Of a DNA stretch of 53,354 bases, positions 1 through 45,842 are shown piece by piece (position 1 is the stretch's first letter; the number at the start of each line of letters is the position of its first letter). The notes under the pieces were generated by a model that was given only the letters and a program-made list of their open reading frames with translations, was not told the origin of the DNA and did not search any database. This DNA comes from Phycisphaeraceae bacterium (lineage in GTDB: Bacteria > Planctomycetota > Phycisphaerae > Phycisphaerales > Phycisphaeraceae): positions 1 to 53,354 of the forward strand of contig JAJDCU010000074.1 of NCBI GenBank assembly GCA_029260655.1, written 5' to 3'. The position numbers and the translations under genes were made by a program.

Positions 1-62
1 TCGCTTCGCCACTCTCGGCCCTCACGGGGCCTCGCACGGGTTCACGGGGAGATGGGAGAACA

Positions 63-113
63 AAAGGACAGCCTCACGATGTCCTTTACAACCGGTTCAC
101 GGGTTCACCGGTT
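63..113. repeat. Two short inverted repeats in the gene-free left end
   Basis: The first 387 bases hold no convincing gene. Two small inverted repeats are visible: AAAGGACA (63-70) against TGTCCTTT (80-87), and AACCGGT (90-96) against ACCGGTT (107-113). Fragments of TTCACGGG recur several times in positions 38-107. They could be the downstream hairpins of a gene lying left of the window, or a dispersed genomic repeat; the sequence alone does not decide. Confidence 0.35.
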
Positions 114-279
114 CTGCGGCTCACGCCGCCAGGGGGGAGACTGATTGCCCCCGGAAGGACAACGCCAGAACTGAAACTGTTGTAGATGTCATCAGGCCAG
201 AGGCTTGGCGCGCCGTTTCCATTTCGCTCTGTCTGCCGGAAGGTAGCATCCAAGAACTGTTAGGATAATATTTGGTGTT

Positions 280-297
280 CATGTATGATCTTACATG
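280..297. promoter_or_regulatory. Possible operator palindrome upstream of the Abi-like gene
   Basis: CATGTA (280-285) and TACATG (292-297) form a palindrome with a 6-base centre, 90 bases before the start of the abortive-infection-type gene. A TAATAT box lies at 267-272, just upstream. Such a site could bind a dimeric repressor, but no regulator gene is present beside it. This is pattern recognition only. Confidence 0.25.
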
Positions 298-387
298 TAA
301 AATGCCGCTCGCTCTACGGCTAAAGCGTAGGCGGCAATCATCGACAAGAATCCATTTCTGGAGATTGGGTAAGTAGTGGGAGGTTAA

Positions 388-1326
388 TTGGGAACGACTC
401 GTAGTTCAGACAACGCGATTACTGAGGTTACTCGCCGCGCAATCATTGACGAGATCACGGTTGCAAATGCTCCGTGGAGCGGACGCATGGGCGAAGACGA
501 TTTTCTCATGCGCATATTTGACTTGACAAACATGCGATCTACGGATCACAGGTACGATGATGCTGCGGGAGACATCTGTCAACACAGGGTGCGGAACTAC
601 GATTGGGATGACGATTGGATATTTTCCGACGCTAGATTCAACTTGCTTCGCTGCCCCGACGAGCAGTTCTTGGCGTTCCTGAGCGAGATGCTTCACCCTG
701 TTGTCCAGGACGATGAGGAATGGGTGGAATGGCTTCTCGATATGTTCAATCGCCACCTTCTGGTAGATGGCTGGGATATAGCGCCTGTTAGTGAGATTTC
801 TGATCGGCCAATATTTGCTGGTAGACGTTTACTTACGGGTGCCAGTCAAGCCGTAAAGAATGCTCGCGAAGCTACAAAGATTCTGGATACTGCATATATC
901 AGCAAGCAGATTAGTCGGATGGATAAAGCTGTTGTAGGCGATCCTGAGTTGGCTATTGGTACGGCAAAAGAATTTGTCGAGACAATCTGCAAGACTATTC
1001 TTGACGAGTGCAATGTATCGATCGAAAAAGGCGTCGACTTACCCAAGCTGACGAAGCAAGTAATGAGACTATTAGAACTTGCTCCAGACCAATTGCCTGC
1101 TGCATCCAAAGCAAACGATACACTGAAACGTCTGCTGAGCAACTTAGCTACTGTAAGCCAGGGAGTGGCCGAATTGCGGAACATTGCGGGTAGCGGCCAT
1201 GGTAAGTCTGCCAAGACACAGGTACTAGAACATAGACATGCACGGCTCGCTGTGTCCGCAGCAATAGCGCTTGGCGTGTTTCTCTTTGAAACTTACGAGG
1301 ACCAGTACGAGCGGACATGTTCTTGA
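388..1326 (+). CDS. Abortive infection family protein (Abi_C domain)
   Basis: This 312-residue protein ends in what looks like the abortive infection C-terminal domain (Abi_C, PF14355). The region from about residue 185 runs through an AIGTAKEFVE helix to the hallmark GSGHGKS (about 272-278) and the helix ARLAVSAAIALGVFLFET near the end. Proteins with this domain are found in phage-defence settings, although the biochemical activity of the domain is not settled. The N-terminal 180 residues are acidic and not recognised. The start is a TTG with a GGGAGG Shine-Dalgarno box about 5 bases upstream; no in-frame ATG offers a better start. It lies 117 bases upstream of the peptide precursor and on the same strand, so it may share the island's fate without belonging to the peptide pathway. 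Base composition is AT-richer than the chromosomal genes on the right. Confidence 0.75.
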   Translation: MGTTRSSDNAITEVTRRAIIDEITVANAPWSGRMGEDDFLMRIFDLTNMRSTDHRYDDAAGDICQHRVRNYDWDDDWIFSDARFNLLRCPDEQFLAFLSEMLHPVVQDDEEWVEWLLDMFNRHLLVDGWDIAPVSEISDRPIFAGRRLLTGASQAVKNAREATKILDTAYISKQISRMDKAVVGDPELAIGTAKEFVETICKTILDECNVSIEKGVDLPKLTKQVMRLLELAPDQLPAASKANDTLKRLLSNLATVSQGVAELRNIAGSGHGKSAKTQVLEHRHARLAVSAAIALGVFLFETYEDQYERTCS

Positions 1327-1377
1327 CCCCGGAAGGATTTGTCATTCTATCTTTTGCAGCCAGATACGAATAGGTCG

Positions 1378-1406
1378 TTGCGTATCATATCGGTACAGAG
1401 TATTCT
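1378..1406 (+). promoter_or_regulatory. Sigma-70-like promoter for the precursor peptide gene
   Basis: TTGCGT (1378-1383) and TATTCT (1401-1406) are separated by 17 bases, an ideal spacing for a housekeeping promoter. The predicted transcript would start near 1413 and give a leader of about 30 bases before the precursor ATG, with GGAG at 1432-1435 as ribosome binding site. This would let the precursor and radical SAM genes be expressed independently of the upstream Abi-like gene. Confidence 0.4.
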
Positions 1407-1443
1407 TGTATTAAGCACCCTTCTCTTTTATGGAGCCGCATAA

Positions 1444-1824
1444 ATGAGTCAATCCGACAACATTGGGCATCCAGAAGCATGCAATCTTATTGAACCGTGT
1501 CAGCTCATCGTTCATGATAGTCGAGGTAATTATTTCGTAATCCCGCTGTCAAGACTTGAAGAGTTTCAGATGTCTGACGAGGCGGTTGAAAAAATGCTTT
1601 CTGACCAGGGATCGGGAGGCGGGGTTTCGACTTCGCCATTAACCAGTAGTACGCCTAGATCTATACCGGGGGCGGTTGTTCGAACTGCGCCTGGAGCGAT
1701 AGTGCGTGCAGCACCTGGAGCAGTCGTTCGAACTGCCCCAAGTGCAATGGTTCGCGCAACACCAGAGAAGCAGTCTGATCAAACAATCGTGCGGAGTTGG
1801 ATTCAGGCAGAAGAGGCGGACTAA
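1444..1824 (+). CDS. Repeat-containing RiPP precursor peptide (candidate)
   Basis: A 126-residue protein with a leader-plus-core layout. Residues 1-60 form an acidic leader containing GNYFVIP and an LEEF helix, followed by the flexible stretch GSGGG (56-60). Residues 75-106 are four tandem 8-residue units: PGAVVRTA (75-82), PGAIVRAA (83-90), PGAVVRTA (91-98) and PSAMVRAT (99-106), consensus P-G/S-A-V/I/M-V-R-T/A-A/T. A degenerate copy, TIVRSW, sits in the tail (114-119). The core has no cysteine, so thioether bridges are excluded. The four DNA units (1666-1761) differ at synonymous positions (arginine as CGA, CGT, CGA, CGC), which points to selection on the peptide. The stop overlaps the radical SAM start (TAATG), implying translational coupling. 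Being a RiPP precursor is inference from layout and neighbour; no product is known. Confidence 0.8.
   Translation: MSQSDNIGHPEACNLIEPCQLIVHDSRGNYFVIPLSRLEEFQMSDEAVEKMLSDQGSGGGVSTSPLTSSTPRSIPGAVVRTAPGAIVRAAPGAVVRTAPSAMVRATPEKQSDQTIVRSWIQAEEAD
1666..1761 (+). repeat. Four in-frame 24-bp repeats encoding the core peptide units
   Basis: Units at 1666-1689, 1690-1713, 1714-1737 and 1738-1761 each encode one 8-residue unit of the precursor core. They are more alike as protein than as DNA, and third-codon positions vary freely, so this is an old, selected amplification rather than a fresh slippage repeat. Confidence 0.85.
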
Positions 1825-3374
1825 TGGCTACACCGCAGACGTGTCACGAGACGATCCCCGAGTACGCCTACCAATGGCGGCCATTCGCGTCACGTGACAT
1901 GATCTACAAAAAGGTTGTTACGCGAAACGGTGATCTATGTTTCATCGTTGATCCATGGAATCAGAGATGGCTACTTGCCTCTGAGCCAACGCCCTCTCTC
2001 TTAAAGGCCGCTGACGGCACGACTCGATTTTCAAAGATCATCCGTGATATGTCAACTAAGCCAGGACTTCAAGTCCCTGCGATAGGGATTGTTGGGCTAG
2101 CTGAACAATTATCCGATCATGGCTTGCTATTCAACTGTACGGAATCGCATCAGCAGAGTGGTAATCCTGTATACAACATATCGTCGCTGGCAGGCATGCA
2201 CATTGAGATTACCAATGCCTGTAACATGACATGCAAGCATTGTTATGTGTCGTCAGGCAAGAAAATGTCTGGAGAGATGACAACTGTCCAAATTATGCAA
2301 ACGATTGATCAACTAACTCCGTTCACGGGGAAGCGTGTTGTAATTTCGGGAGGTGAACCAGCGATCCACAAGGACTGTGCCCAGATTGTTGAATATTGCA
2401 TGATTGATCGCGGCCACGATGTTGACTTCTACTCTAATGGGAATAATTTTCCACGTCGCTTAGCAGAGCATTTCATGTCATTGAACAGTAGATCTAATCG
2501 AACGGTTAGGGTTCAAATTAGTCTAGAGGGGGCGACTGCCCCTATAAATGACGCGATTCGCGGTAATGGCTCTTTTGGCTCAGCCATGAGCAGTCTCGTG
2601 ATGTTTAAGGATGTCGGAATTAATCGTGACGTTGTACTATTTGTGTGTATCACCAGCCACAATATCCATGAGCTCGACGATATTATCTCATTGGCCGAAG
2701 AGTGTGACGTCGGCATGTTGGTATTTTCCCAGTGGCAGAAGCAAGGAAACGCATCAGACATTCCTTGGCGCGATATCGCGCCAAGTACCGAAGAGTGGCT
2801 AAAAGCAGGCGAAAAGCTACTAAAGTACTCAAATCCACGCCTCCAAATATTTGGGAATTTTTATGGCGATTTGAATAATAATATTTATGGCCGATATAGT
2901 ATTGACGGTTCTTTGTTCCCCAAGCATACCTATTACTACAATTCATTTCCACGAATTTCACCTGATGGAGATGTGTGGGCAGATCAATTGTGGGTAGATC
3001 GGGACTGGGTTCTTGGGAACGTGAAAGAAGTCAATCTCTATTCATGTTTTGAAACACCCAAATTCCAACTTCAGTTGGAGGAAATGCAGAATAGAAGTAA
3101 TACGATTTCGGAGTGCCGCAGTTGTGACTGGAAATTATTATGTGAAGGGGGATCACCGGGCCACACCTATGCAGAATATGACGGTGATATGAACAATCGA
3201 GATCTATTCTGCGATTCGCGTATCTATTGGTTCGAGCGATTTATTTCGTATCACGTAGAAAAAGCTATTGGCTCGGGTGAATTTGACATTGAATTCAAGA
3301 GACCACCTGCACATGAAGAATTGGCGCCAGACAATAAGAAAAAACACCGAAAAATGGTTGTTCTCGGGTCATGA
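1824..3374 (+). CDS. Radical SAM/SPASM peptide-modifying enzyme with RRE-like N-terminus
   Basis: From the ATG at 1824 this is a 516-residue enzyme. Residues about 20-105 resemble a PqqD-like RiPP recognition element (YKKVV, then FIVDPWNQRWLL, then a helical end), which in related systems binds the precursor leader. The radical SAM motif is CNMTCKHC (Cys 133, 137, 140), followed by GGEP at 176-179. The C-terminus has a CX2CX5C SPASM signature (Cys 431, 434, 440) and one more cysteine at 463. The usual cysteine after the SPDGDV turn is missing (GDVWAD), so one auxiliary iron-sulfur cluster may be absent or differently ligated. The ATG overlaps the precursor stop in TAATG; a start at 1797 would extend further into the precursor. 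The likely role is a radical-based modification of the repeat core, such as a crosslink or epimerisation; the reaction cannot be told from sequence. Confidence 0.88.
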   Translation: MATPQTCHETIPEYAYQWRPFASRDMIYKKVVTRNGDLCFIVDPWNQRWLLASEPTPSLLKAADGTTRFSKIIRDMSTKPGLQVPAIGIVGLAEQLSDHGLLFNCTESHQQSGNPVYNISSLAGMHIEITNACNMTCKHCYVSSGKKMSGEMTTVQIMQTIDQLTPFTGKRVVISGGEPAIHKDCAQIVEYCMIDRGHDVDFYSNGNNFPRRLAEHFMSLNSRSNRTVRVQISLEGATAPINDAIRGNGSFGSAMSSLVMFKDVGINRDVVLFVCITSHNIHELDDIISLAEECDVGMLVFSQWQKQGNASDIPWRDIAPSTEEWLKAGEKLLKYSNPRLQIFGNFYGDLNNNIYGRYSIDGSLFPKHTYYYNSFPRISPDGDVWADQLWVDRDWVLGNVKEVNLYSCFETPKFQLQLEEMQNRSNTISECRSCDWKLLCEGGSPGHTYAEYDGDMNNRDLFCDSRIYWFERFISYHVEKAIGSGEFDIEFKRPPAHEELAPDNKKKHRKMVVLGS

Positions 3375-3410
3375 TGCTGCGGACACTACCTTTCTAGCTT
3401 CATCATTGCC

Positions 3411-4244
3411 TTAAGCTACATAGCTACTATTAGCGTTAACCGCACTCGTGAACAGCACCTCATAAGGGATCGCTTCCACTTTGGCGAGTCGCGTTACTAG
3501 CCGCTGGGGTTGCCAACGTATTCTTTGGAGCGACCACTTCGCATAAACCCAGCTCTTACCGGCGATGATCTGATCAGCACTGCTAAGTCGGCCCCAACTC
3601 TCTTCAAGCTGGCTTGCAACTCGGAGTAATTGCGTAATGAGATTGTTGACGACGACGTTCGGATCTGCCCCCGCACGGACCGGCGTTAACCAGAAATTGA
3701 AGTTCCAGTCCTCGCGGTCCTCGTTGATATCAGCGAAGTCCTCGACGAGTTCCATCAACGAATCATAGTATTCGAAGAACTTTCGAAGACGATTAGATCG
3801 TTGGGGGACGAGTGCGTACGCATCAATGAGGTCGCGTGCAATCCGCACATCTGCACATTTCAGCTTCGCGATGTGGCCATACTCTTGAACACTACATCCA
3901 TCGAAATTGAGATCGTGGATTGCCCGCTCGATCTCTCCATATTGCCGCAAGGAATCCACCCCGTTTGCAAGAACGCCCAGCTTTATGGCCCGGTCCGGGA
4001 TGCTGGCGTTCTCTAATTGCCGCCAGAATGTATTTTCTGCAACAGAGGGTAACACGCAGTTATTCTCAAAGAGTTCGTCTAGAGCGTAAACCCTCTGTTG
4101 AACCTCGGCAGCAGTCCACCGCCATTCGTCATAGGCCTCCTCATCCAAAGTAGATGCCGCAACTGAGCACAAACCTCTTGCTTGGAACAGGGCTTGTATC
4201 TTTTTGTTCAGTTTTATCATTCTATGCTCTTGTCCTATCGCCAT
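3411..4244 (-). CDS. Unrecognised soluble protein, last gene of the island operon
   Basis: A 277-residue protein with no membrane segment or signal peptide, rich in predicted helix and in Trp, Asp and Arg; I do not recognise a family. The start at 4244 (MAIGQEHRM) is preferred because AGGGATGG lies at good distance upstream and it leaves 13 bases after the stop of the membrane-protein gene; a longer reading to 4331 would run into that gene. It is the fourth gene of a tightly packed minus-strand operon with the membrane protein, the PRMT-like enzyme and the transporter, and it ends 36 bases from the converging radical SAM gene. Its position suggests a role in the same pathway, possibly as a partner protein, but this is not shown by the sequence. 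Confidence 0.7.
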   Translation of the reverse strand: MAIGQEHRMIKLNKKIQALFQARGLCSVAASTLDEEAYDEWRWTAAEVQQRVYALDELFENNCVLPSVAENTFWRQLENASIPDRAIKLGVLANGVDSLRQYGEIERAIHDLNFDGCSVQEYGHIAKLKCADVRIARDLIDAYALVPQRSNRLRKFFEYYDSLMELVEDFADINEDREDWNFNFWLTPVRAGADPNVVVNNLITQLLRVASQLEESWGRLSSADQIIAGKSWVYAKWSLQRIRWQPQRLVTRLAKVEAIPYEVLFTSAVNANSSYVA

Positions 4245-4257
4245 TACATAGCCATCC

Positions 4258-4959
4258 CTATTTAATACCCAGCCAATGATAGACATATGCCACGTTACCA
4301 ACAGACGCACTTGCACCAACAGCACCGCCAATGAAGCTTTGATAATACTTCAATGGCATTGCGTTATTCGGATTTGATCCAAAGATATCGGACATAATAG
4401 ATATGCCGACTAACACTAAAGCTGCTGCGATCGGTAATTCGATCCACACAAAGGAATGCCTCGCGCGAGTTCTAATTGACTTTAGTGATTCGATATCATC
4501 GTCAGTTAATGGAACGCGTTCGTTAACTTTCGACTTCCAATACCTATAATTAATAATAGCGCCAAGCGAAGCAGCCATGACCACTGCAATAACGTGTATA
4601 TGTGGCCAAAGAGGTTCGTAATAATGCCAATTCCATGCCGGCGCACAAGCACAGTATATTGAGGCAGCTAGAAAAAATATCATTGCCCAGTTCAGATTTG
4701 TCTGTGATGATACCACACTGCTAGCAAGCAGATTGCCAGGACGTTTGCCCCACTTGTGCAAATCTTTATTCATCAAGTACGTAAATAAGGCCACCATAAC
4801 TAAAGCCGCCAGCTCCCAAGAAAGACTTGGCGGTAACTTTTCCAAGTAAGCGATACCGGCAGCAAATAGCATGACTGCAATATGAAGAATTACAAGGCCT
4901 AGCTTCCATTTCCTAAATATCCTAGCCCAGAGAGAATCTAGAACAATAATCTCATCCAT
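4258..4959 (-). CDS. Unrecognised integral membrane protein of the island operon
   Basis: A 233-residue protein with five or six hydrophobic segments (about 19-39, 47-64, 91-109, 119-137, 171-190 and a weak one at 207-228), joined by short charged loops such as KDLHKWGKR and an acidic DDDIES stretch. No transporter, protease or ABC signature is visible. It begins 20 bases after the PRMT-like gene and ends 13 bases before the last gene, so it is co-transcribed with them. Possible roles are self-immunity, export, or anchoring of a modification complex; none can be chosen from sequence. Confidence 0.75.
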   Translation of the reverse strand: MDEIIVLDSLWARIFRKWKLGLVILHIAVMLFAAGIAYLEKLPPSLSWELAALVMVALFTYLMNKDLHKWGKRPGNLLASSVVSSQTNLNWAMIFFLAASIYCACAPAWNWHYYEPLWPHIHVIAVVMAASLGAIINYRYWKSKVNERVPLTDDDIESLKSIRTRARHSFVWIELPIAAALVLVGISIMSDIFGSNPNNAMPLKYYQSFIGGAVGASASVGNVAYVYHWLGIK

Positions 4960-4979
4960 ACTTGGCCACCCTTAGTCAA

Positions 4980-5816
4980 TTATGTATTTGTTTGATGAAT
5001 TGCTTTCCAAAACAATGAAGTGTTTGCACTACCGACAGGCATGCTTAGCATCACCTCAAACCGCCCAGGATATTGTTTCGCGATTTTTTCAACAGGTGAT
5101 CCCCAGCTTGTTGCTTGACCGATTTTATGACGTGTATCGATGGAAACAGAATGTATAAAACTCAATCGCATGCCCCAAATCAAAGCATCGGCATTTCCGT
5201 CAAGGTTCAGAAATACAAGATTGGTATGAGTCGGCCAAAGGTTCACCTCTGAAAAGCTGAGCGAAGACACGAGATGCCAAGTAGATGAATAGTGAAACTC
5301 GTCACTATGTGCAATCCAGCCTATTTGACCAAGGCTATCAGGGCAACTCCCAAAAGCTGCCCAGAGTTCTACTCTGTCGGGTAAGTACTGGACTCCCTTA
5401 CCAGAAGACCAAGGGTTGTTTTTTTGGAATTTGGCCAATGTGCTTTGTATGCCCTCGTCATAAAGGCGAGCACCAATCATCTCGTGGATCACAACATCTT
5501 GCGGTGGAAGTATTACTTCTGAGATATCGGCTTCGATAGTTGTCACATTGGAAGTAGGGCCTTGTAGCCATGTAAGTGTGCGTGAATACTCAGTGACTCG
5601 AGATCCACAGTCTATCAGAGTGACTTCAGCACCTAGAGACGCTGCGTAACGGCCGAAGACGCCGAGACCGGCCCCCAACTCTACAACACGCATTCCAGGT
5701 TTGACGCAAGCATCGATAGCACGAAGAAATGCGTGCACTCGCGTAAGGTCGGCGAGCAATAAAGCATGCGTAAACCCATCATCGAAATCAATCTGGTTAA
5801 GGTAGTAGTCACGCAT
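4980..5816 (-). CDS. PRMT-like protein/peptide arginine N-methyltransferase
   Basis: A 278-residue class I SAM-dependent methyltransferase with the specific marks of protein arginine methyltransferases. The N-terminus carries a YY pair (4-5). Motif I is VVELGAGLG (44-52), with an acidic D69 at the end of the next strand. The double-E loop is present: E112-MIGARLYD-E121, two glutamates exactly nine residues apart with the M-x-G-x-x-L pattern, which in the family hold the arginine guanidinium. PDR (146-148) matches the start of the family's beta-barrel, and TSW (236-238) stands where THW is usual. It is a little shorter than eukaryotic PRMT cores. Sixteen bases separate it from the upstream transporter gene and 20 from the next. 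The substrate is unknown; the repeated arginines of the precursor encoded 3.2 kb away are an attractive candidate (inference). Confidence 0.75.
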   Translation of the reverse strand: MRDYYLNQIDFDDGFTHALLLADLTRVHAFLRAIDACVKPGMRVVELGAGLGVFGRYAASLGAEVTLIDCGSRVTEYSRTLTWLQGPTSNVTTIEADISEVILPPQDVVIHEMIGARLYDEGIQSTLAKFQKNNPWSSGKGVQYLPDRVELWAAFGSCPDSLGQIGWIAHSDEFHYSSTWHLVSSLSFSEVNLWPTHTNLVFLNLDGNADALIWGMRLSFIHSVSIDTRHKIGQATSWGSPVEKIAKQYPGRFEVMLSMPVGSANTSLFWKAIHQTNT

Positions 5817-5832
5817 GTGTTACACAACATTC

Positions 5833-7452
5833 TTAATCTTGATGCTCGACAAAACCCATCATCATGAAGCCAATCTTCTTTAGGTTCCCAGCCCCTGTTA
5901 CTACAAACGAGGCCGCCATCATAATGGCGAGTGGCACGAGAACCGCGACTACAGGAGCCGCGTAGCTGTAGGAATAGGCGTCTGTGATGTTACTAGCCAT
6001 GGTACTGAGTCCAAGAAGTATTAAGATGCTTATAGAGGCAATAATAACCGCTACAAATGCCCATACTCGAATTCTCGCAGCGGCGACAGGGGCATGGAGG
6101 GCTGCCACGGCGATGGGCGAAAGAGTCAGCTGTGCCGCCCAAACGAAGAAGATCAAAGCCACGAGTGGGATTTTCGCATACATGCTCCCGATAACGAGCA
6201 CTAGTGCAACCACCACCACCACCCAGACCGTCCATCTGAACGAGCGCCCCAATCGTTTGTCTAGATGGTCGTGTTGAAGATTACGTAAGCGGGTCACTTG
6301 TCGTCCCGTTCGATTCCATTGGAACAAGAAAGCTTGGGCCGCGGTGATAAGGTAACTATCAGTAGTGGACAGGATAGCGCTGTACATACCAAGCAGAACA
6401 AGTGCAACCAGGAGGGCAGTACCGGCAGTGGCCCACCCACCAAGCCCGATTAATCCTTGATGCAATACCGATGACATTGGTTCGCCCTGGCTGTACGCGA
6501 ACTCCATAACTGACATCCGCGCATCTGGGAGTTGCAGTGACGACGCAGGCCAATGAATGAGTAACATTCCTGCAATAAAGAGAATCAGCCATCCGAAGCC
6601 GTTGAGGCAGGTCGCCTGCCGACAGGCTCGCTTCGCAACCTCACCAGTTGGTGCAAACTGGAGTCGCTGCCAAGTGGTCAGATCACCGAGAAGTATGAAC
6701 GCCTGAAACGCGAAAAATCCCGCGAAGAACAGAACCAGGTTGATCAGCATACTTGTCGTCGAGGCATCATTCGTCGAAGCTGCCAACTGCTCACCAATGG
6801 TGATCTGCTCCCCATGGGCTATCCCGAGTGCGACAAGGATCACTAGTGCAGCCAAGGCCAACATAACAATGGTGGATTGGACGCGGTCGGAGGCAAAAAC
6901 AGCTCGCATCCCTCCGTGCTCAGCAAAGAGTCCAACAGAAATCGCCATAACGGCTGCTACTGCTATCAGTGTTACACTTCCTGAAAGATCAATTCCGAGT
7001 GTGTGCAAGAGCACGATCCCTACGAGCATCTCCAGGGCAACGGTTCCGGTAGCAGTCATCATCGTCAAGAGAGAACATGCCCGTGACAGAAGACGGCTTT
7101 TATACTTGTCCTCAATGAACTCAAGGATTGTTGGGTAGTGCTGTGACTCTGCGTGGATGCGGTTGGCGTGTCTCATTAGGAGTATGAAGCCAAATATCCA
7201 CGTGACGACAGCCCAGATTGCGAAGATTTGATATACGAGCGTTAAGAGAAGCGCCCCGATTACAACGTTGCCGAGGCTCATCCATGATGCAAAGAGTGAA
7301 CGAGCTGAATCAGACGTATTCAGATCGCCTTTGGGCAATAGACGATCTGAAGCGAACCCGCCGGGCCTACTTGTCGAGTACGCGAAGTAGGCTGCAACAC
7401 CTAAAGCTATCACAATTCCAGTCGCGGCTATCAATGTTGTGATATGAATCAT
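5833..7452 (-). CDS. Sodium:solute symporter (SSS) family transporter
   Basis: A 539-residue membrane protein with about 13 hydrophobic segments. Family-type features include GGMRAVFASDRVQS (about 180-193), matching the GGL-AV-TD-Q segment of SSS proteins, TTWQRLQFAP near 260, and a MYSAILSTTDSYL helix near 355-367. SSS carriers import sugars, amino acids, nucleosides or vitamins with sodium. It is the first gene of a four-gene minus-strand operon and sits 16 bases from the PRMT-like gene, so it may import a precursor or cofactor for the pathway, or salvage or export its product. The substrate cannot be read from the sequence. The start has no close Shine-Dalgarno box; GAAGGA lies about 20 bases upstream. 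Confidence 0.8.
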   Translation of the reverse strand: MIHITTLIAATGIVIALGVAAYFAYSTSRPGGFASDRLLPKGDLNTSDSARSLFASWMSLGNVVIGALLLTLVYQIFAIWAVVTWIFGFILLMRHANRIHAESQHYPTILEFIEDKYKSRLLSRACSLLTMMTATGTVALEMLVGIVLLHTLGIDLSGSVTLIAVAAVMAISVGLFAEHGGMRAVFASDRVQSTIVMLALAALVILVALGIAHGEQITIGEQLAASTNDASTTSMLINLVLFFAGFFAFQAFILLGDLTTWQRLQFAPTGEVAKRACRQATCLNGFGWLILFIAGMLLIHWPASSLQLPDARMSVMEFAYSQGEPMSSVLHQGLIGLGGWATAGTALLVALVLLGMYSAILSTTDSYLITAAQAFLFQWNRTGRQVTRLRNLQHDHLDKRLGRSFRWTVWVVVVVALVLVIGSMYAKIPLVALIFFVWAAQLTLSPIAVAALHAPVAAARIRVWAFVAVIIASISILILLGLSTMASNITDAYSYSYAAPVVAVLVPLAIMMAASFVVTGAGNLKKIGFMMMGFVEHQD

Positions 7453-7639
7453 GATATGGTGAGTGTATCATCCTTCAGAACGTGTGGAAAGATGATTCTG
7501 TAGAATAATGGTTGGTCTTACTCCATCTAACAAGACTTACTCGGCCTCTGTCAACACATCCTTTTTGGCGGTCGGTGTATGGATCACTTTCGGCCTGGGC
7601 CATCCAGCCGTGAGCGAGGCCCTAGGACCGTGGAATACG

Positions 7640-7681
7640 GCTTCCCCTACCCACAGCCTTCAGGCGTGGGTCAGTTATCAT
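7640..7681. repeat. Hairpin resembling an IS200/IS605-type end
   Basis: The gene-free stretch 7453-7741 contains CCCACAGCC followed by TTCA and GGCGTGGG (about 7660-7680), a stem of eight pairs with one bulged A and a four-base loop. Hairpins with this shape and the words GAAGCC...CCCACGCC on the other strand are typical of the subterminal ends of IS200/IS605 elements. No tnpA or tnpB is left. It sits exactly where the AT-richer island gives way to the mobile-element region, so it may be a scar of an insertion. Confidence 0.3.
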
Positions 7682-7741
7682 ACAATCCATTGTGTATTGT
7701 AGGCCAATTCAAGCAATTCAACTTGAAAGAGGTGCCGCAGC

Positions 7742-9406
7742 ATGAGAAAGCAATGGCGACCAACCCCACTCACTCTCGGCAACCGCCTTGATGGCCAGGG
7801 CGACGTACTTCTCTCGCCCTCAGACCGCGAATCCCACACCTACATCGCCGGTGCCACTCGCACCGGCAAATCCAAGCTCATCGAGCATCTGATCCGCCAG
7901 GACATCGGTTCATGGCGAAAGCACCGCTGCGGAATGTTACTCCTGGACCCCCATGGCGAGGTGTACCACGAAGTCATGCGTGCGGTGGCCGCTCGTGGTA
8001 TGACCGACATACCAATCGTCCCCATTGATCTCACCGATCCCGAATACATCGTCTCGTATAACGTGCTGAGGAAGCAACAGGCTGATGTATCAGCTGTCGT
8101 CAATGCTCTTGTCAGGGGTATGACGCACGTATGGGGTGTGGATGGAACCAATGAAACCCCGCTCTATGAGCTATGGATTGTCAATCTACTGGACGCTCTC
8201 TACCAGCTTGACCAAACATTGGCCGAAGCGCCCTTGATGCTGTCATTGAATGATGAGAACTATCGCAAGCGAGTGCTCCCCCAGCTATCCGGCAGTACAG
8301 AAGAGCATTGGAAAGCTGCCTGCATGATGGGCAAGAAAGAGTTCCGGGGCGAGGTGGGTTCAACCGCCAGACGCTTTCATCGTTTCCAGTTCAACGAGAA
8401 ACTTCGCCTGATGCTGGGCACAAAGGAGCCGTCCTTTGACTTCGGACAGGCTATCGAAGAAGGCTGGATTGTGCTGGTCAATCTCTCAACCGAAGGGGCA
8501 TGGGCTGAAGAGAAGGATGCAGACACACTGGCCACCCTAATGCTCACGGATCTATGGACAGCCGCCAAGGCCCGGGGCAAGGGCAAGGACAAGAGACCAT
8601 TCCGTGTCGTCATCGACGAGTTCCAAAACTTCATTACCCCGACCATTGCCAAGAACCTGGCACAAGCGGCGGGCTATGGTCTTCACCTGACTTTGGCGAC
8701 GCAGTTCCCGACGCAACTGCTGTCGGCCGGCAGCGTCGGCGAAGACATCTACCGCAACGTCATGGGTAATGCTCGCTCCAAGATCGTCTTCTCGCTTGAA
8801 GAGCCTGAGTCGTTGAAAGCTTTGAGTGAATGGCTCTTCCGGGGCAAGATTGACCCCAACCAGATCAAGCAAGAGATCTATGCCACCCGTGCGGTTGGCC
8901 AGAAGCTCACTACACTCTCCGGCTACTCGTCCACCACGACGGATTCAGAGAGTTCGGGCGAGACAGAAACGATTGATGATGATGGGAATAGGTCGAGCAG
9001 TAGTTCGCGCGACCAATCGAGTCATTCTTCAAGCGAAGCATATAGCGAACACGAGGCGTTCGCCACGGTATACGGCAAGGAGTTGGCTTCGCGGCAGTAC
9101 CGCTCCATCGACGAGCAACTCTTCCTAGCAACACAACACATCGTCGGCCAGGACCAACGCTACGCCTATGTACGCACCGCCAGCATGAAGACGCCCGTGG
9201 CCATCCGGACTCCCGAAGTCAAGAAGGGAAATGCACGCGACCCGTTTGTGCGAGAGCACACGCATCGCCTATTGGAAAGACTGCCCTTTGCCCTGCGAAC
9301 CGAGGCGGCTAGAAAGCAGCTTGCCGAGCGGCAGGCCGTGATTACCAACCAGAAGTATGGTGTGATCGACGAGCCCACAACCGCCAGCCGTCGGATACCC
9401 AGATAA
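7742..9406 (+). CDS. HerA/TraD-like DNA-translocating ATPase
   Basis: A 554-residue P-loop ATPase of the FtsK/HerA/VirD4 coupling-protein class. Walker A is GATRTGKSKLIEH (about 37-49), then MLLLDPHGE (65-73), and Walker B is FRVVIDEFQNF (about 288-298), followed by an LTLATQFPTQLL sensor region. It lacks N-terminal membrane helices, which sets it apart from classical VirD4/TraG proteins. Residues about 397-440 are an unusual serine-, threonine- and acid-rich linker. Proteins of this class pump DNA during conjugation or in mobile-element biology. No relaxase or mating-pair genes accompany it, so here it is more probably part of an integrative element or a stand-alone defence or mobility function. 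The gene starts 50 to 100 bases after the suspected IS-like hairpin. Confidence 0.8.
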   Translation: MRKQWRPTPLTLGNRLDGQGDVLLSPSDRESHTYIAGATRTGKSKLIEHLIRQDIGSWRKHRCGMLLLDPHGEVYHEVMRAVAARGMTDIPIVPIDLTDPEYIVSYNVLRKQQADVSAVVNALVRGMTHVWGVDGTNETPLYELWIVNLLDALYQLDQTLAEAPLMLSLNDENYRKRVLPQLSGSTEEHWKAACMMGKKEFRGEVGSTARRFHRFQFNEKLRLMLGTKEPSFDFGQAIEEGWIVLVNLSTEGAWAEEKDADTLATLMLTDLWTAAKARGKGKDKRPFRVVIDEFQNFITPTIAKNLAQAAGYGLHLTLATQFPTQLLSAGSVGEDIYRNVMGNARSKIVFSLEEPESLKALSEWLFRGKIDPNQIKQEIYATRAVGQKLTTLSGYSSTTTDSESSGETETIDDDGNRSSSSSRDQSSHSSSEAYSEHEAFATVYGKELASRQYRSIDEQLFLATQHIVGQDQRYAYVRTASMKTPVAIRTPEVKKGNARDPFVREHTHRLLERLPFALRTEAARKQLAERQAVITNQKYGVIDEPTTASRRIPR

Positions 9407-9589
9407 TTATTGCTTCCGGCATCTTGCGCGATATACTTGAGGGTCAATACTTGGCCCATTCACCCATTAAGGAGCGATGCCAGCAAGATAAGTTAGACCC
9501 AACATCCTGACTTCTGCGAAAGCAGACGCCTTATTCGTTCAAACTACCCGGTGTATTCTCCTGCATACATCAATGAGTCTCTGAACCGT

Positions 9590-9850
9590 TTCCCTGTTTT
9601 GGGTCGATTTACAGGGATTTTTTCGTTTTCGCAGGGAAGATGGGGGTTTGGACGGTAGGTCGACCGCGGTTACTGGCTGAAATACCGAGACTTACGGCGG
9701 TTCATTTCTGAATTCCCTACGCCGTGTAACAGGGAACGAGCAGGGAATTAACAGGCGGCAGATCGAGGCCTTTGGCGGGCTTGAGGTGGGCGGTGGCCGC
9801 GCCTCGAACAAGGCTGTAATCAAGCCCCTGCTTAGGGGTATTCCCTATTG
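9590..9850. repeat. Cluster of short CAGGGAA / TTCCCTG repeats
   Basis: Within the 489-base gap 9407-9895 the word AGGGA(A), or its complement TTCCCT, recurs at about 9590, 9612, 9632, 9713, 9730, 9741 and 9842. CCCTGT (9592-9597) and ACAGGG (9611-9616) pair around a 13-base loop. No coding sequence is evident. Similar CAGGGAA clusters are familiar to me near integrated elements in planctomycetes, so this may be an attachment or recombination region, but that link is from memory and not tested. Confidence 0.5.
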
Positions 9851-9895
9851 TTGGTGCCTTGCAAGCACTAGAGTTACGGGCTACTTGTGATCGCT

Positions 9896-10990
9896 ATGAA
9901 CCAATCGATTTACGTCTTAGTACACCTCCTATTGGAGTCGTTTTCGGTACATCGTGATGCCCAGGTCCGGTTCCTGAAGGAAGAGAACCGGATCCTCCGT
10001 TCGCGGATCTCTAGCCAACGCTTGATCCTCGATCCCGAGGAGCGAACCCGGCTTCTGACCATCGGCGCTGAGTTGAAGCATCAGGTTAAGGGGCTGGTCA
10101 GCATTGTCCAATTCCGAACCTATCAGCGCTGGGTCAAGGAGCAGGCATCAGGCAAGAAGCCCGGCCGTGTCGGCCGCCCCCGGAAGATTGGCCAGGATGT
10201 CCGCCAAGCCATCATCAGGTTTGCAAGGGAGAACCCAGGCTGGGGCTACCTTAGAATCGTCGGCGAACTACTCAAGCTGCGCTGCAACGTTGGTAAGACC
10301 AGTGTCCGGCGGATCCTGCGTGAAGAACGCATCTATCCCAAACCCACCAGGCCCAACCGTACCGATCGAGTGGACTATCAGCCCTGGGACCAGTTCATCA
10401 AACTCCACGTCAACACACTGGTGGCCTGCGACTTCTTCAGCAAGGCGATCTGGACGCCGTTTGGCAAGCGTCAAGCCTTCTCGCTGATGTTCATTCACGT
10501 CGGGACGCGAAAGGTCTGGGTCTCCCCGACAACCTATCACCCCAACGAGGCTTGGGTAAAACAACAAGCCCGCAACGTGCTGATGTGGTTGGATGACAAC
10601 GAGATTCAGGCGACTCACATGATCCGCGACCGGGACACGAAGTTCACCACCAGCTTCGATCAACTGATAAAGACTTCCGGGGTCAAGGCCGTGAAGTCGC
10701 CGGTGATGGCGCCCAACGCCAACGCATTCGCCGAGGCCTGGATCGGATCGATCAAGCGGGAATGTTTGAACCATTTTATGTGCTTTAGCTTAAAGCACCT
10801 GGACCACATCGTGCAGGCGTACATCTACTTCTACAACGCGTATCGCCCGCATCAGGGCATAGGCAATCAGACGCTTCGTCTCGCTGGCGAACCTCTGAAG
10901 TACTCGGGCCAAGCAGCTCTGAAGCTGGGCGATCTCGAATGCGTCGAACAACTCGGCGGGTTGCTCAAATCCTACCGCCGCGCCGCGTGA
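9896..10990 (+). mobile_element. DDE transposase with integrase core (IS3/IS481-like)
   Basis: A 364-residue single-frame transposase. The N-terminus has a leucine-rich helical segment and an HTH-like region (about 85-150, including RKIGQDVRQAI). The integrase core (rve) carries the catalytic acids in VACDFF, MIRDRDTKF and AFAEAWIGSIKREC, spaced as expected for D,D35E enzymes, followed by FYNAYRPHQG. A GTG at 9887 is an alternative start three codons upstream. The frame appears intact, so the element may be functional, but I could not identify terminal inverted repeats or a target duplication by eye. It separates the HerA-like ATPase from the prophage-derived block. Confidence 0.85.
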
Positions 10991-11018
10991 AGCCGGAGCC
11001 ATTTGGTTGTCATAAAGC

Positions 11019-11294
11019 GTGGTTCCACAGCGACCTGGCAGCCCCCCCGAGTCAGCAGGTGTCACAAGCCTGCTACTTCAGGCCGAAAGGGCTCGTGCTG
11101 ATTCGAGTGCCATCGAGGCTCTTTCAATTGCGAATCGATGCGCATCTCGCACACATCTTTCTGAGGATACGGCCTCATCTGTTAGATCCAGCATGGCTTG
11201 GATCGAGCGGACCGCAGAACAATTAAATAGCGCGTTAGGCGATGAGCGGACCTGTTCCCGGGCCGGTCAGTCGTTGCGTGTGGTTTCTCCCTGA
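11019..11294 (+). pseudogene. Possible remnant coding fragment downstream of the transposase
   Basis: The 384-base gap 10991-11374 has no clear gene. One frame (11019-11294) reads as a helical, Ala/Ser/Glu-rich peptide ending in a normal stop, without a credible start or ribosome binding site. It could be the 3' part of a gene cut by the insertion of the adjacent transposon. The fragment is too short to assign to a family, and chance is a real alternative in this composition. Confidence 0.2.
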
Positions 11295-11374
11295 TCAGAA
11301 GAGCCCACATCCACCTGTACTTGGCCCGGGAATCCACCGGCGCGATCGCTGCGCCTCCTCAGAAAGTTCACCCA

Positions 11375-12754
11375 ATGCCACAAACGACTCAACAACACTC
11401 AAAACCCCAGTTGGAGCACGTCTCCCCCGACACGCTTCGTCCGCATCCAGACAATCCGCGTATCCATACACGCAAACAGATCAAGCAAGTGGCCAACAGC
11501 ATTAAAGCCTTCGGCTTCCAGGGCGTGGTCCTGGCCGATGAAGACTCGCAGTTGATTGCGGGGCACGCCCGTGTCGAAGCCTGCAAACTTTTGGGTGTCA
11601 CCGAAGTCCCGTTGCTCCGTGTCAAAAACCTGACCGACGAACAGGTTCGTGGTCTGATGATCGCTGACAACCGGTTGACAGATAACAGCGATTGGGATGA
11701 TCGGTTGCTCGGCCACAATCTGAAGATCCTCGCGGACCTCGAGCTTGATTTCGACCTCGATGCAGTGGGTTTTGACTACGGCGAACTCGAATTCCGCATC
11801 GGACAGATCGAGCTTACTAACGACGACGAACAATGTGCCGAAGATAATGAGTCCTCGCTTCCGGATTTTGATCAGGTCCAAGCGGTATCGAAACCGGGTG
11901 ATCTGTGGTGTCTTGGGGATCACCGGCTGATCTGTAACGACTCGACCCTCGCCGAGACGTACGAACAACTACTCGGAAACGAACGGGCGGCCATGATCTT
12001 CACAGATCCGCCGTACAACCTCCCGGCTCGTGACATCGGGAAGATCTGTGCCGAAGCGCACCGCGATTTTGCGATGGGCTTCGGTGAGATGACCCCGGAA
12101 GAGTTTACGGCCTTCTTGGGTTCGGTGATTAATAAACTTTGCCAGTACAGCGTGCCGGGTTCGATTCATTACATTTTCATGGATTGGAGGCACGCCGCCG
12201 AGATACTCACGGCGGGACAGACCCACTACTCTGAGTTCAAGAATCTTTGCGTTTGGTCGAAGGATCGAGCGGGTATGGGTACGTTTTACAGAAGCCAGCA
12301 CGAACTGGTCTTCGTGTTCAAACACGGCGATGCACCCCACCAAAACCATTTCGAGTTGGGTCAGCACGGCCGCACTCGCAGCAACGTTTGGCACTATCCT
12401 TCGGCTCGCAGCATGACTTCTGGGGACGGTGATTTCGACCGAGACGAAGTATTAGAACATCACCCTACGGTTAAGCCCGTCAAGCTCATCGAAGAAATCG
12501 CCCTCGATTGTTCGCGCCGCGGCGAGATTGTTTTAGATCCGTTTCTCGGCAGTGGATCTACGCTAATCGCCTGTGAAAAGACCCAACGACGATGTTTTGG
12601 TATCGAGCTTGAACCACGCTACGTCGATGTAGCGATCCAGCGCTGGCAGCAATGGACGGAGCAGGAGGCGATCCACGAAGCAACTGGCCAGACCTACAAC
12701 CAGATTGCCACCCAGCGCGGCGAAGCGATGAGCAAGGAGCCTACCGATGCCTGA
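11375..12754 (+). CDS. ParB-domain DNA methyltransferase (N6-adenine/N4-cytosine type)
   Basis: A 459-residue fusion. Residues about 10-120 are a ParB/Srx-like N-terminal domain (LRPHPDNPR, then QLIAGHARVEACKLLG and MIADNRL). After an acidic linker comes a beta-class DNA methyltransferase: the catalytic DPPY motif at 211-214 precedes the SAM-binding DPFLGSGST at 388-396, an order typical of N6-adenine or N4-cytosine enzymes. Such ParB-methyltransferase fusions are common in prophages and integrative elements, usually without a restriction partner, and here too none is present. The ATG at 11375 is preferred to the TTG at 11321, which would add 18 non-conserved residues. The stop overlaps the DUF5681 gene by 8 bases, so the two are coupled with the terminase that follows. 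Confidence 0.88.
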   Translation: MPQTTQQHSKPQLEHVSPDTLRPHPDNPRIHTRKQIKQVANSIKAFGFQGVVLADEDSQLIAGHARVEACKLLGVTEVPLLRVKNLTDEQVRGLMIADNRLTDNSDWDDRLLGHNLKILADLELDFDLDAVGFDYGELEFRIGQIELTNDDEQCAEDNESSLPDFDQVQAVSKPGDLWCLGDHRLICNDSTLAETYEQLLGNERAAMIFTDPPYNLPARDIGKICAEAHRDFAMGFGEMTPEEFTAFLGSVINKLCQYSVPGSIHYIFMDWRHAAEILTAGQTHYSEFKNLCVWSKDRAGMGTFYRSQHELVFVFKHGDAPHQNHFELGQHGRTRSNVWHYPSARSMTSGDGDFDRDEVLEHHPTVKPVKLIEEIALDCSRRGEIVLDPFLGSGSTLIACEKTQRRCFGIELEPRYVDVAIQRWQQWTEQEAIHEATGQTYNQIATQRGEAMSKEPTDA

Positions 12755-13121
12755 GGAGCAATCCGAAGACTATGAAGTCGGCTACGGTAAGCCGCCACAG
12801 AGCACAAGGTTCCAACCGGGGCAATCCGGGAACCCAAAGGGAAGGCCAAAGAGAACCAAGAACGCCGAAACGCTGCTCGATCAAATTTTAAGTAAAACGA
12901 TTCGAATATCGGACAGTGGCACGCCGCGCACCCTCACGATGGCGCAGGCCTTCATCCAAAGTCTGGTGACGGATGCGGTCAAAGGCAAGGCCGACGCACG
13001 TCGGATGGTCTTCGCATACATGATGGCTCAGAAAGAAGTGGAAGGATTCGAAATCGACGCTGCTGACAAGAAAGCCCTGGATGAATTTCTCAAGCGAGTG
13101 AATCAGCAGGACAAGGAGTAA
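12747..13121 (+). CDS. DUF5681 domain protein (small-terminase-like position)
   Basis: A 124-residue protein beginning with the DUF5681 signature: GYGKPPQSTRF, then PGQSGNPKGRPK (about 29-40), followed by a helical tail. Members are regularly encoded just before large terminase genes in prophage-like elements, where they may act as a small terminase or DNA-binding partner; this role is inferred. The gene overlaps the methyltransferase stop and ends 4 bases before the terminase start, so the three form one operon. Confidence 0.85.
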   Translation: MPEEQSEDYEVGYGKPPQSTRFQPGQSGNPKGRPKRTKNAETLLDQILSKTIRISDSGTPRTLTMAQAFIQSLVTDAVKGKADARRMVFAYMMAQKEVEGFEIDAADKKALDEFLKRVNQQDKE

Positions 13122-13125
13122 GCAA

Positions 13126-14226
13126 TTGGATACTACAGCAAAGGCTATCCGTCACATGTATCGCACCGATCTAGCCAGCTTTGTCCGGTTGGCGTTCAAG
13201 CTTGTCGAACCTGGTGCGGATTTTATCCCCCACTGGTCAATCGATATGGTGAGCGATGCGCTGATGCGCTGCCACCGCGGTGAGACCAAGCGGCTGATTA
13301 TCAACATGCCACCTCGCTACCTCAAGTCGTTCTGTGCGTCGGTCGCGTTCCCGGCCTGGTCGCTGGCCTTGCGCCCCGAGTCCAAGATCATGTGCATCAC
13401 CGGCAACCGGGGGCTGGTCGAAGACCAGCACCAGATGAATCTTCGGTTGATGAGCCACCCCAACTACCGGGCACTGTTCCCTCATATCAAGAGTCTCGAT
13501 GACAAGGGCCAGACGATCCGCTTGCCCCACGGCGGTATACGCAGCGCTCATGTGCTCACACCCGGCTCGGGGATCACGGGGCTTGGTGCCGACACGATTA
13601 TCATCGACGACCCGCTGCCTGCGGGCTACACCGACGACGAAAAGCGGATCGAGCAGGTCAACCGGTGGTACGACCAGAACGTCTACCAACGGTTAAATGA
13701 CAAGGCCAACGGCGTAGTCATCGTGGTGATGCAGCGGCTGCACGTCGATGATTTGACGGGTCACTTGCTAAAGCAGGACGGGTGGGAGTTGTTGAACTTG
13801 CCCGCCGTGGCGATGCAAGATGAGCAGTATCCCCAACTATTCGGTGATCGTATCGTGCGGCGCTGGGGTGACGCGTTGAACATAGAGATTGAATCGATCG
13901 ACGAACTAAAAGAAGCGATGCGGCGTATGGGCGCTAAGACCTTTATGGCTCAGTACCAGCAAAAGCCCTATCCGCCTGGAGAAGGTAACGGCTTTCATGG
14001 GCCGTACCGCTGGATGACACCCGTTGGGCCGGAGATGCCTGGTGTTGGCGAGATGAACGTCGCGTTCATACATCGCAGTCAGGAAGACATCGTTGAAGAT
14101 GAGCTTTTCCATGAACCCCATTGCCCGCCTTCAAATGAACCTGCGTTAAGACAGACGACCACTGATGAGTGGCATACGCTCGCCCGAAAAATCCGGCGCC
14201 CTGCAACAAGCAAGTCTAAATTCTAA
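13126..14226 (+). CDS. Phage terminase large subunit, nuclease domain missing
   Basis: A 366-residue protein with the ATPase half of a phage large terminase: Walker A-like MPPRYLKS (about 61-68), a CITGN strand (about 92), and Walker B IIIDDPL (about 160). It continues normally to AQYQQKPYPPGEGN (about 275-288), the point where family members enter their RNase H-like nuclease domain. From there the sequence becomes unrelated and stops about 80 residues later, so the protein should not cut DNA. This could be an old frameshift or a recombination junction. It starts at TTG with AAGGAG upstream, 4 bases after DUF5681. No portal, capsid or tail genes follow, so this is a prophage remnant rather than a phage. 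Confidence 0.8.
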   Translation: MDTTAKAIRHMYRTDLASFVRLAFKLVEPGADFIPHWSIDMVSDALMRCHRGETKRLIINMPPRYLKSFCASVAFPAWSLALRPESKIMCITGNRGLVEDQHQMNLRLMSHPNYRALFPHIKSLDDKGQTIRLPHGGIRSAHVLTPGSGITGLGADTIIIDDPLPAGYTDDEKRIEQVNRWYDQNVYQRLNDKANGVVIVVMQRLHVDDLTGHLLKQDGWELLNLPAVAMQDEQYPQLFGDRIVRRWGDALNIEIESIDELKEAMRRMGAKTFMAQYQQKPYPPGEGNGFHGPYRWMTPVGPEMPGVGEMNVAFIHRSQEDIVEDELFHEPHCPPSNEPALRQTTTDEWHTLARKIRRPATSKSKF

Positions 14227-14306
14227 ACCACCGATGATGATGAAAAACGCCCTATATATGCAAAAAGGACTTGATCTTCCGCCCGGTTCATGCGTGTATA
14301 CGGGGG

Positions 14307-14825
14307 ATGAAAGAGTCTCTGGACAATGGCGATTTTGAGGCCCTAAAGCGGCTACCCGTGGCCGAACTAGGGCGATTGTGGCGGGATAACGCCGGGCGTA
14401 AAGCCAGGCAGAAGGAGCCGCCGCGCGTCCGAGCTCTGCTGGCTCGGGATCTGGCCTGGTGGGCCCAACAGCGGGGGCGAAGTGGGCTCGACGCGGAGAC
14501 CCAAGGCCTACTCAACGCTGCTATCCGGCAGGCCAAGGCCCGGGCCGCTGACCCAAGGGATAACCCTGCTCCACCCCGGAACCCCCGGCACCCCCAGAAA
14601 CGCCGCACCAAGAAGCCCGAGCTTCAGGCAGGGGTCACGCTGATCCGCAAGTGGCGGGGTAAGACCTACAAAGTGAAGGTGATTGAGGATCACAAAGGCC
14701 AGAAACGATACCAATTCGCCGACCGCGAGTACCGCAGCCTGACGCACATCGCCCAGGAAATCACCGGCGCCCATTGGTCTGGCCCACGCTTCTTCGGCCT
14801 CAACCGTGTGAGGTCCACAGGATGA
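14307..14825 (+). CDS. DUF2924 domain protein
   Basis: A protein of about 172 residues (184 if the TTG at 14271 is used). It shows the DUF2924 pattern: AELGRLWRDNAGRKAR, the basic central linker, GVTLIRKWRGKTYKVKV, and the closing ITGAHWSGPRFFGL. The family has no known biochemical function, but it is repeatedly found directly upstream of large serine recombinases in integrative elements, as here, where its stop overlaps the recombinase start (ATGA). It may be a recombination accessory or directionality protein; that is inference from position. Confidence 0.85.
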   Translation: MKESLDNGDFEALKRLPVAELGRLWRDNAGRKARQKEPPRVRALLARDLAWWAQQRGRSGLDAETQGLLNAAIRQAKARAADPRDNPAPPRNPRHPQKRRTKKPELQAGVTLIRKWRGKTYKVKVIEDHKGQKRYQFADREYRSLTHIAQEITGAHWSGPRFFGLNRVRSTG

Positions 14826-16561: not shown

Positions 16562-16617
16562 ATCGCATTACTCTTAGGGAGCGGCCCGCGCGAAAGCGCA
16601 CCGCTCAAAATGGCGAA

Positions 16618-16747
16618 AGAGACGTTTGGCTAATTCGCCCCCAATGAGCCCTTATTGATCCAGAGTTACGCCAACAGAGACAGTCGCCAAAACGCACAAT
16701 CCCCCGTGTTTGCGGGGGATTGTGCATGTGCTGGGCGAAACGTCTCT
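16618..16747. repeat. Nested inverted repeat between recombinase and tRNA-Ser
   Basis: AGAGACGTTT (16618-16627) and AAACGTCTCT (16738-16747) are perfect 10-base inverted repeats, 110 bases apart, and enclose the strong tRNA terminator hairpin. They lie in the only gap between the serine recombinase and the tRNA-Ser gene. They may be part of an attachment site or of the element boundary; a purely structural role in the tRNA 3' region is the alternative. Confidence 0.45.
16694..16725 (-). terminator. Rho-independent terminator of tRNA-Ser
   Basis: GCACAATCCCCCG (16694-16706) pairs perfectly over 13 bases with 16713-16725 around a 6-base loop. On the minus strand the stem is followed by GTTTTGG, giving a short U run. 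It lies about 50 bases beyond the 3' end of the tRNA gene and fits its terminator. Confidence 0.75.
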
Positions 16748-16775
16748 AAGTGATTTAGAGAGCGTTTGTTAGAAG

Positions 16776-16863
16776 CGGAGAGGGAGGGATTCGAACCCTC
16801 GGTACGGACAAGCCGCACACACGATTTCCAGTCGTGCACCTTCAGCCACTCGGTCACCTCTCC
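16776..16863 (-). tRNA. tRNA-Ser (anticodon GGA)
   Basis: The 88-base gene on the minus strand has a perfect 7-bp acceptor stem (16857-16863 with 16777-16783) and discriminator G at 16776. It also has the D-loop GTGGCTGAAGG, an anticodon arm with GGA at 16827-16829, the long variable arm typical of serine and a T-arm with GGTTCGAATCC. The 3' CCA is not encoded. It is transcribed away from truB and towards the recombinase. Confidence 0.97.
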
Positions 16864-44294: not shown

Positions 44295-44327
44295 CTGGTC
44301 GAACCAGGAGCACGGGCACATGAAAGC

Positions 44328-45353: not shown

Positions 45354-45842
45354 GTTTGACTCATGGTGTGTCTCGGCTCTTTCGCATGGCTCCAATTTAC
45401 GCGATCGATGCGGGTATAGTGATGAAGAGCTTCATTTTATGCCTTCGGCGTTGCGGCGGATCGACCGAGATAATAGATCACAGACGACCAAGCGCGCATG
45501 TGGGTGACTACCAATGCTTTATACTTTAAAGATAAAAAGCGGTCCCTCTTAAACACACGACCTGCGACGACACCACCCCTCGCACGAAGCCACAAGCGGC
45601 ATTCGCGCAGTGGTAATTTTTTTGTCACGATCACGGGTGAGAAGAATCCTTGACAATAAGTTTGCATTCTGATATTTCAACACTATGAGTTTTCTTGAGT
45701 CTGTTCTTTTGTGCTGTGTTTTTCCCTTGCTAAAGGTCGGGGGTTCAGACATCATCGACGACGAAACAGTTACACGCCACAATAATTTGTGGCATGTAGT
45801 GATGTAATTTGGCGGGGTCGGGGGATCAGGGAGGATCCCAGA

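Follow-up and report, generated by a model that had tools for sequence, protein, structure and literature searches.

The locus described here raises the question of whether a small open reading frame (ORF) with four copies of an eight-residue unit encodes the substrate of the radical SAM enzyme whose gene follows it and, if so, which residue of the unit is modified. The window, i.e. the whole stretch of DNA that was analysed, comprises 53,354 nt of contig JAJDCU010000074.1 (assembly GCA_029260655.1) from a Phycisphaeraceae bacterium. SPASM radical SAM enzymes with RREs modify peptides, and most known radical-SAM RiPP reactions depend on Cys, on an aromatic residue or on Asp/Asn.

A repeat-bearing gene and its partner in two phyla

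The features of the gene pair are as follows.

1444..1824 (+): precursor gene, 126 aa, from its translation
1528..1602 (+): conserved leader segment, NYFVIPLSRLEEFQMSDEAVEKMLS, which aligns with GYYEIDIDRLEDFRMDDERVEEFMK of the Nocardia precursor
1609..1623 (+): GSGGG hinge at the leader/core boundary (residues 56-60), missing from the Nocardia precursor
1666..1761 (+): core of four 8-residue units, in frame (residues 75-106)
1822..1826 (+): TAATG stop/start overlap of precursor and enzyme genes (TAA at 1822-1824, enzyme ATG at 1824), from the sequence
1824..3374 (+): predicted radical SAM/SPASM peptide maturase, 516 aa (Pfam PF04055, E 8e-20; 54.7% identity to the Nocardia enzyme)
1899..2138 (+): putative PqqD-like (RRE) N-terminal domain, residues ~26-105 (sub-cut-off match, profile match, low-confidence model)
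2220..2243 (+): CxxxCxxC (C133, C137, C140) of the SAM-cleaving cluster, from the sequence motif
3114..3212 (+): CX2CX5CX22C (C431, C434, C440, C463) of one auxiliary cluster, from alignments to AnSME 4k36 and the Nocardia orthologue

An earlier note on this DNA had described a precursor-like gene comprising leader, GSGGG hinge and four 8-residue units, coupled by TAATG to the enzyme gene. The overlap is present as described, and translation of the ORF at 1444-1824 (+), which gives MSQSDNIGHPEACNLIEPCQLIVHDSRGNYFVIPLSRLEEFQMSDEAVEKMLSDQGSGGGVSTSPLTSSTPRSIPGAVVRTAPGAIVRAAPGAVVRTAPSAMVRATPEKQSDQTIVRSWIQAEEAD and has a ribosome-binding-like GGAG about 8 nt 5' of its start, confirms the arrangement of the gene. 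The units read PGAVVRTA, PGAIVRAA, PGAVVRTA and PSAMVRAT and indeed lack Cys, Tyr, Trp, His, Asn and Asp, as had been stated. A chance origin of the period-8 pattern can be excluded, as the best of 20,000 peptide shuffles scored 18, against an observed column score of 26/32. Structure prediction for the precursor gave a pLDDT of 36.

The array is not a young minisatellite, since Tandem Repeats Finder did not report it (1666-1761) at score 30 and the DNA of the units is only 65-73% identical at 24-nt spacing in a repeat search. Like-for-like residue pairs between units use the same codon in 10 of 33 cases, and Nei-Gojobori counting between units gives a pS of 0.73 and a pN of 0.18. The repeats have thus diverged at synonymous sites while the protein was kept, which argues for selection on the peptide. 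Judged by these counts, the window peptide is maintained by selection, purifying between units, rather than reflecting a fresh duplication.

A tblastn search of plasmids with the enzyme identified a relative in Nocardia sp. NBC_01377, located on a 536-kb plasmid, with 54.7% identity over 91% of the length, the next plasmid matches being mycofactocin maturases at ~31% identity. Directly upstream of the Nocardia enzyme gene is an ORF annotated as a "hypothetical protein" which, from the ATG at 9552 of the locus (L101), encodes a 140 aa precursor. Its leader contains ...LYIQTPSGYYEIDIDRLEDFRMDDERVEEFMK, its core consists of six units (PGAFVRAT, PGASVRAV, then four times PGSFVRAV), and its TGA meets the enzyme ATG as TGATG. 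With the window precursor as sole query against 72,556 plasmids, only this locus was found (tblastn E 8e-7), and the two precursors match each other by BLASTP with E 5e-18. P1, V5 and R6 do not vary among the ten units. G occupies position 2 (S in one unit), A or S position 3 and A or T position 7, while position 4 is free (V, I, M, F or S).

Since the two pairs have unrelated gene neighbours, we conclude that the two genes represent the conserved core; no peptidase, transporter or immunity gene is common to the two loci. A precursor ORF beside a peptide-modifying SPASM radical SAM gene has been kept together at two loci in two phyla. The proposal of a radical-SAM RiPP pair is supported by this relative from another phylum, with a repeat ORF in the same place and the same invariant P, V and R. 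Enzyme relatives devoid of a repeat ORF, or with decayed repeats, had been named as observations that would speak against it; the only close relative found retains the repeats. As a separate observation, the Nocardia pair is flanked by two ORFs, ~6 kb apart (L101:8039-8506 and 14170-15072), that match different parts of DpdA (deoxypurine-in-DNA protein A).

The enzyme, its clusters and its N-terminal domain

The assignment of the enzyme to the SPASM radical SAM class stands, with one refinement, namely that it has cysteines for one auxiliary cluster only. Its Pfam SPASM match (18.1 bits) lies below the curated cut-off of 21.5 bits. In the alignment to AnSME 4k36, using what we take to be the AuxI and AuxII ligand positions of that enzyme, C431, C434, C440 and C463 coincide with the AuxII ligands. 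The AuxI cysteines are absent: the aligned positions covered read D387 and S444, and there is no conserved Cys before ISPDG. The enzyme thus lacks the full SPASM set of seven or eight cysteines for AuxI plus AuxII. The last spacing of the motif is 22 in the window enzyme and 21 in that of Nocardia, and the only other cysteines common to both (C275 and C408) are not cluster ligands. Structure prediction for the enzyme gave a pLDDT of 52.7.

The window enzyme reached no NCBIfam equivalog cut-off, the best match being the mycofactocin maturase MftC (TIGR03962; 128.9 and 141.1 bits for the two enzymes, with a cut-off of 265). MftC is likewise a SPASM radical SAM enzyme acting on a RiPP, but it falls in a separate clade and acts together with MftB, a separate protein, and a short MftA. 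In a tree of 47 sequences the window and Nocardia enzymes form a fully supported pair of their own on a long branch, whose join with a further enzyme (L092) is weak and was flagged as a long-branch case. The best sequence matches in the PDB to the radical SAM part are SkfB and CteB, maturases of sacti- and ranthipeptides, and the alignment with CteB begins where the N-terminal domain ends and reaches the SPASM region. Those enzymes act on Cys-containing cores, whereas the units here are Cys-free and the enzyme has no AuxI ligands.

A single auxiliary cluster is also found elsewhere. NirJ binds one via CX2CX5CX20-21C (PMC12505453), and in NirJ/AhbC, similar to the window enzyme, this is the only auxiliary-cluster motif; a G-x-V-x-A-D-Q stretch of the window enzyme is common to two NirJ/AhbC-like proteins (L027 and L028). 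The NirJ/AhbC enzymes differ in belonging to the heme pathway, with tetrapyrrole substrates, no precursor gene and a position in a separate clade. The epipeptide epimerase EpeE (YydG), which epimerises Val and Ile, has two 4Fe-4S clusters in all (PMC8326336), the number predicted for the window enzyme, but its sequence similarity is marginal (E 0.01-0.32) and it has no repeat core.

The PqqD-like N-terminus of the earlier note is supported, if weakly. The window enzyme gave no Pfam PqqD match by itself. In the Nocardia enzyme, residues 42-97 match PqqD (PF05402) with E 0.0078, below the curated cut-off. In a profile comparison the N-terminus of the pair matched those of planctomycete fusions of a radical SAM protein to ArsM with a score of 35.8, the maximum for a column-shuffled pair being 20.7 when run against a different target set; two of the three fusions scanned have weak PqqD matches themselves (E 0.018 and 0.00037). 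A low-confidence AlphaFold model has strands at 27-33, 36-43 and 48-52 and helices at 57-63, 69-78 and 89-98, the strand-strand-strand-helix-helix-helix order of PqqD. No significant profile match to this domain was obtained with MftB proteins, so that the argument for an RRE rests on PqqD and the planctomycete N-termini. Taken together, matches and model suggest that the N-terminus is likely to be an RRE. In the planctomycete-phylum proteins concerned (L094, L095 and L096), the PqqD-like/radical SAM/SPASM part is fused to an ArsM-like arsenite methyltransferase.

The predicted reaction and its alternatives

We consider it probable that the two genes are a RiPP maturation pair with Val or Arg as the target, a judgement that extends to no one exact chemistry. 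In such a two-gene system the PqqD-like N-terminus would bind the precursor leader, which is predicted to form a strand-turn-strand followed by a helix (RLEEF-x-M-x-DE-x-VE). A 5'-deoxyadenosyl radical produced at the radical SAM cluster would attack one and the same residue of every PGxxVR(A/T) unit, giving four rounds of modification in the window peptide and six in that of Nocardia; the single auxiliary 4Fe-4S cluster would carry electrons, and leader removal and export would be left to proteins encoded elsewhere.

The gene pair, its coupling, the conservation of leader and repeat across phyla, the enzyme class and the pattern of cluster ligands can be read from the DNA itself; sequence alone does not separate Val from Arg as the target, and no known family reveals the chemistry. 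Neither precursor has a core Cys that could serve as the thioether donor of a sactipeptide or ranthipeptide. As no unit contains Cys, Tyr or Trp, and Phe is confined to the variable position 4 in Nocardia, thioether and aryl links can be excluded as the common reaction, in agreement with the earlier note, which had then left Val, Arg, Thr, Ala and Pro as targets. Invariance narrows that list to P1, V5 and R6; since P-G can act as a turn or recognition element, V and R are the better candidates and the most probable targets.

Among these we tentatively favour the invariant Val5, by analogy to known enzymes, with either functionalisation of the side chain, for example to cyclopropylglycine, or epimerisation to D-Val; side-chain and alpha-carbon chemistry appear about equally probable. 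Arg6 is a less probable target, and a link within the unit or at Pro1 slightly less so again. The lean to Val is based on TvgB and EpeE, both of which act on Val. TvgB makes cyclopropylglycine from the Val of each TVGG repeat (PMC9062424). The TvgA/TvgB system of Halomonas anticariensis, which yields a poly-cyclopropylglycine RiPP, likewise has short repeats free of Cys or aromatic partners and one SPASM-family radical SAM enzyme acting on a Val per repeat (PMC9062424), as we propose here. On its published description it is set apart by its unit, TVGG as against PGxxVR(A/T) with an invariant Arg, and by tvgCDE (oxidase and transporters), which are missing here; no oxidase, transporter or peptidase genes are common to both of our pairs.

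The main alternative within a RiPP pair, which we regard as possible but unlikely, is that the enzyme modifies the Arg of each unit, through C-H functionalisation, a Val-Arg link or some other chemistry at the guanidine group, possibly with subsequent action, in this host, of a methyltransferase related to protein arginine N-methyltransferases (PRMTs), the product of 4980-5816 (-). The Arg is invariant in 10 of 10 units, the methyltransferase gene is 1.6 kb away, and Arg is a known radical SAM target in RRR (PMC8326336), but the reaction there requires a Tyr partner, which the units lack. Moreover, the methyltransferase gene belongs to a separate run of genes on the opposite strand, outside the transcription unit of the pair; it has no match in the collection of plasmids and does not occur next to the Nocardia pair. 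An epimerase that converts Val or residue 4 to the D form, in a redox-neutral reaction with C275 or C408 as putative hydrogen donor, is one of the two Val chemistries included above and on its own is distinctly unlikely. The core has no crosslinking partner, and EpeE has an equal number of clusters, Val/Ile targets and a Cys donor (PMC8326336); C275 and C408 are conserved non-ligands in both enzymes, but two sequences are too few to indicate functional conservation, and proteusin epimerases have a C-terminal RRE and no auxiliary cluster (PMC8326336).

It is very improbable that the repeat ORF merely adjoins the radical SAM gene and is not its substrate. Such a view would agree with the lack of other RiPP genes common to the two loci, and PGxxVRT is also spelled by unrelated 24-nt minisatellites, but the window repeats are no such young minisatellite, and the pair, its order, its overlap and its related leaders are the same in two phyla (at ~55% enzyme identity) in otherwise unrelated surroundings. 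Extremely improbable, in our view, is a viperin-like defence protein working with the AbiJ-type gene at 388-1326: the enzyme does match the PADLOC model for prokaryotic viperin (pVip) over the radical SAM core (E 5e-14), but only from residue 128 to 255, many radical SAM families score higher, the RRE-like N-terminal domain and SPASM cluster are additional to it, so that the whole-length pVip architecture is not found, and there is no annotated AbiJ-type gene beside the Nocardia pair.

For a maturation pair acting on Val or Arg, a Cys-free repeated core in which only P, V and R are invariant would leave the enzyme only aliphatic or guanidine C-H bonds to act on, and the modification may, on this sequence evidence, be of a new kind. 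Possible but unlikely is a new RiPP class, in which a SPASM enzyme with one auxiliary cluster would repeatedly act on the V-R pair of the PGxxVR(A/T) units by a reaction so far unseen in RiPPs, for example an intra-unit Val-Arg bond or chemistry at an Arg carbon. The repeat offers several identical test sites within one short peptide, and the pair is small enough to be cloned whole, its two diverged versions permitting leader/core swap tests. Neither precursor is flagged by any curated model of NCBIfam or Pfam, so that comparable pairs are probably overlooked.

Genomic setting and distribution

The surroundings of the pair include the following features.

388-1326 (+): abortive-infection type gene with AbiJ_NTD3 and Abi_C (Pfam E 1e-54), just upstream of the precursor
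14774-16561: large serine recombinase, within the low-GC stretch
16775-16863: tRNA-Ser, just beyond the serine recombinase

GC content is 46-58% from 1 to ~16,500 and mostly 59-66% from there to ~42,000. The low-GC stretch also holds a TraD/HerA-like ATPase, an rve transposase and a ParB-DNA methylase, and positions 1-16863 are probably an integrated mobile element that ends beside the tRNA-Ser; its left end was not found. The system is absent from four genomes of the same genus, in which no other copy of the enzyme was detected. This absence, which extends to the other genomes of the order that were searched, and the plasmid location in Nocardia are most simply explained by horizontal transfer of the pair on mobile elements.

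The search for further members covered several genome sets. The precursor gave, besides itself, only chance matches in 392 genomes of the phylum. The enzyme has no further member in these 392 or in 151 genomes of the order, nor in two sets built around an actinobacterial centre (398 genomes from its class, 396 from its phylum) or in 256 genomes of a mycofactocin-bearing actinobacterial family, some of these searches being centred on actinobacteria possibly far from Nocardia. A pattern scan for the enzyme in 84,980 species genomes, which requires exact short peptides and so can miss members at 55% identity, found distant radical SAM proteins only; viral contigs yielded none and phages only distant radical SAM proteins. 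The repeat DNA pattern matched 17 viral contigs, all by chance or through minisatellites and none with a radical SAM gene; one of these matches (in L143) was a tRNA-like stretch. We judge the system to be a new, rare and horizontally moving two-gene radical-SAM RiPP family, as represented by its two members in the window and Nocardia.

PRMT-like enzymes are uncommon in bacteria. The 278-aa protein of 4980-5816 (-) has PRMTs as its best solved relatives (E 1.9e-6), with HEMIGARLYDE resembling the PRMT double-E loop (its two Glu are nine residues apart) and, late in the sequence, LFWKAIHQ, which is similar to the PRMT THW loop. Further along, at 42810-49186 (+), three successive genes of ~460-550 aa are alike by eye (secreted, helical) and are probably paralogues.

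No repeat ORF with PGxxVR was found beside distant relatives of the enzyme, but two other arrangements were noted. At L099:48-1097 and L130:4566-5669, a subtilase-like ORF with about nine C-x-R-(A/T)-P repeats in its C-terminal half lies directly upstream of an RRE-radical SAM/SPASM gene, and may be a precursor-protease fusion, its R-(A/T)-P element resembling that of the window units. Finally, a 45-aa ORF ending in VQAVVFCSGGPGLPTAS (L092:837-974) is situated 300 bases upstream of an RRE-radical SAM/SPASM gene and is a possible RiPP precursor.
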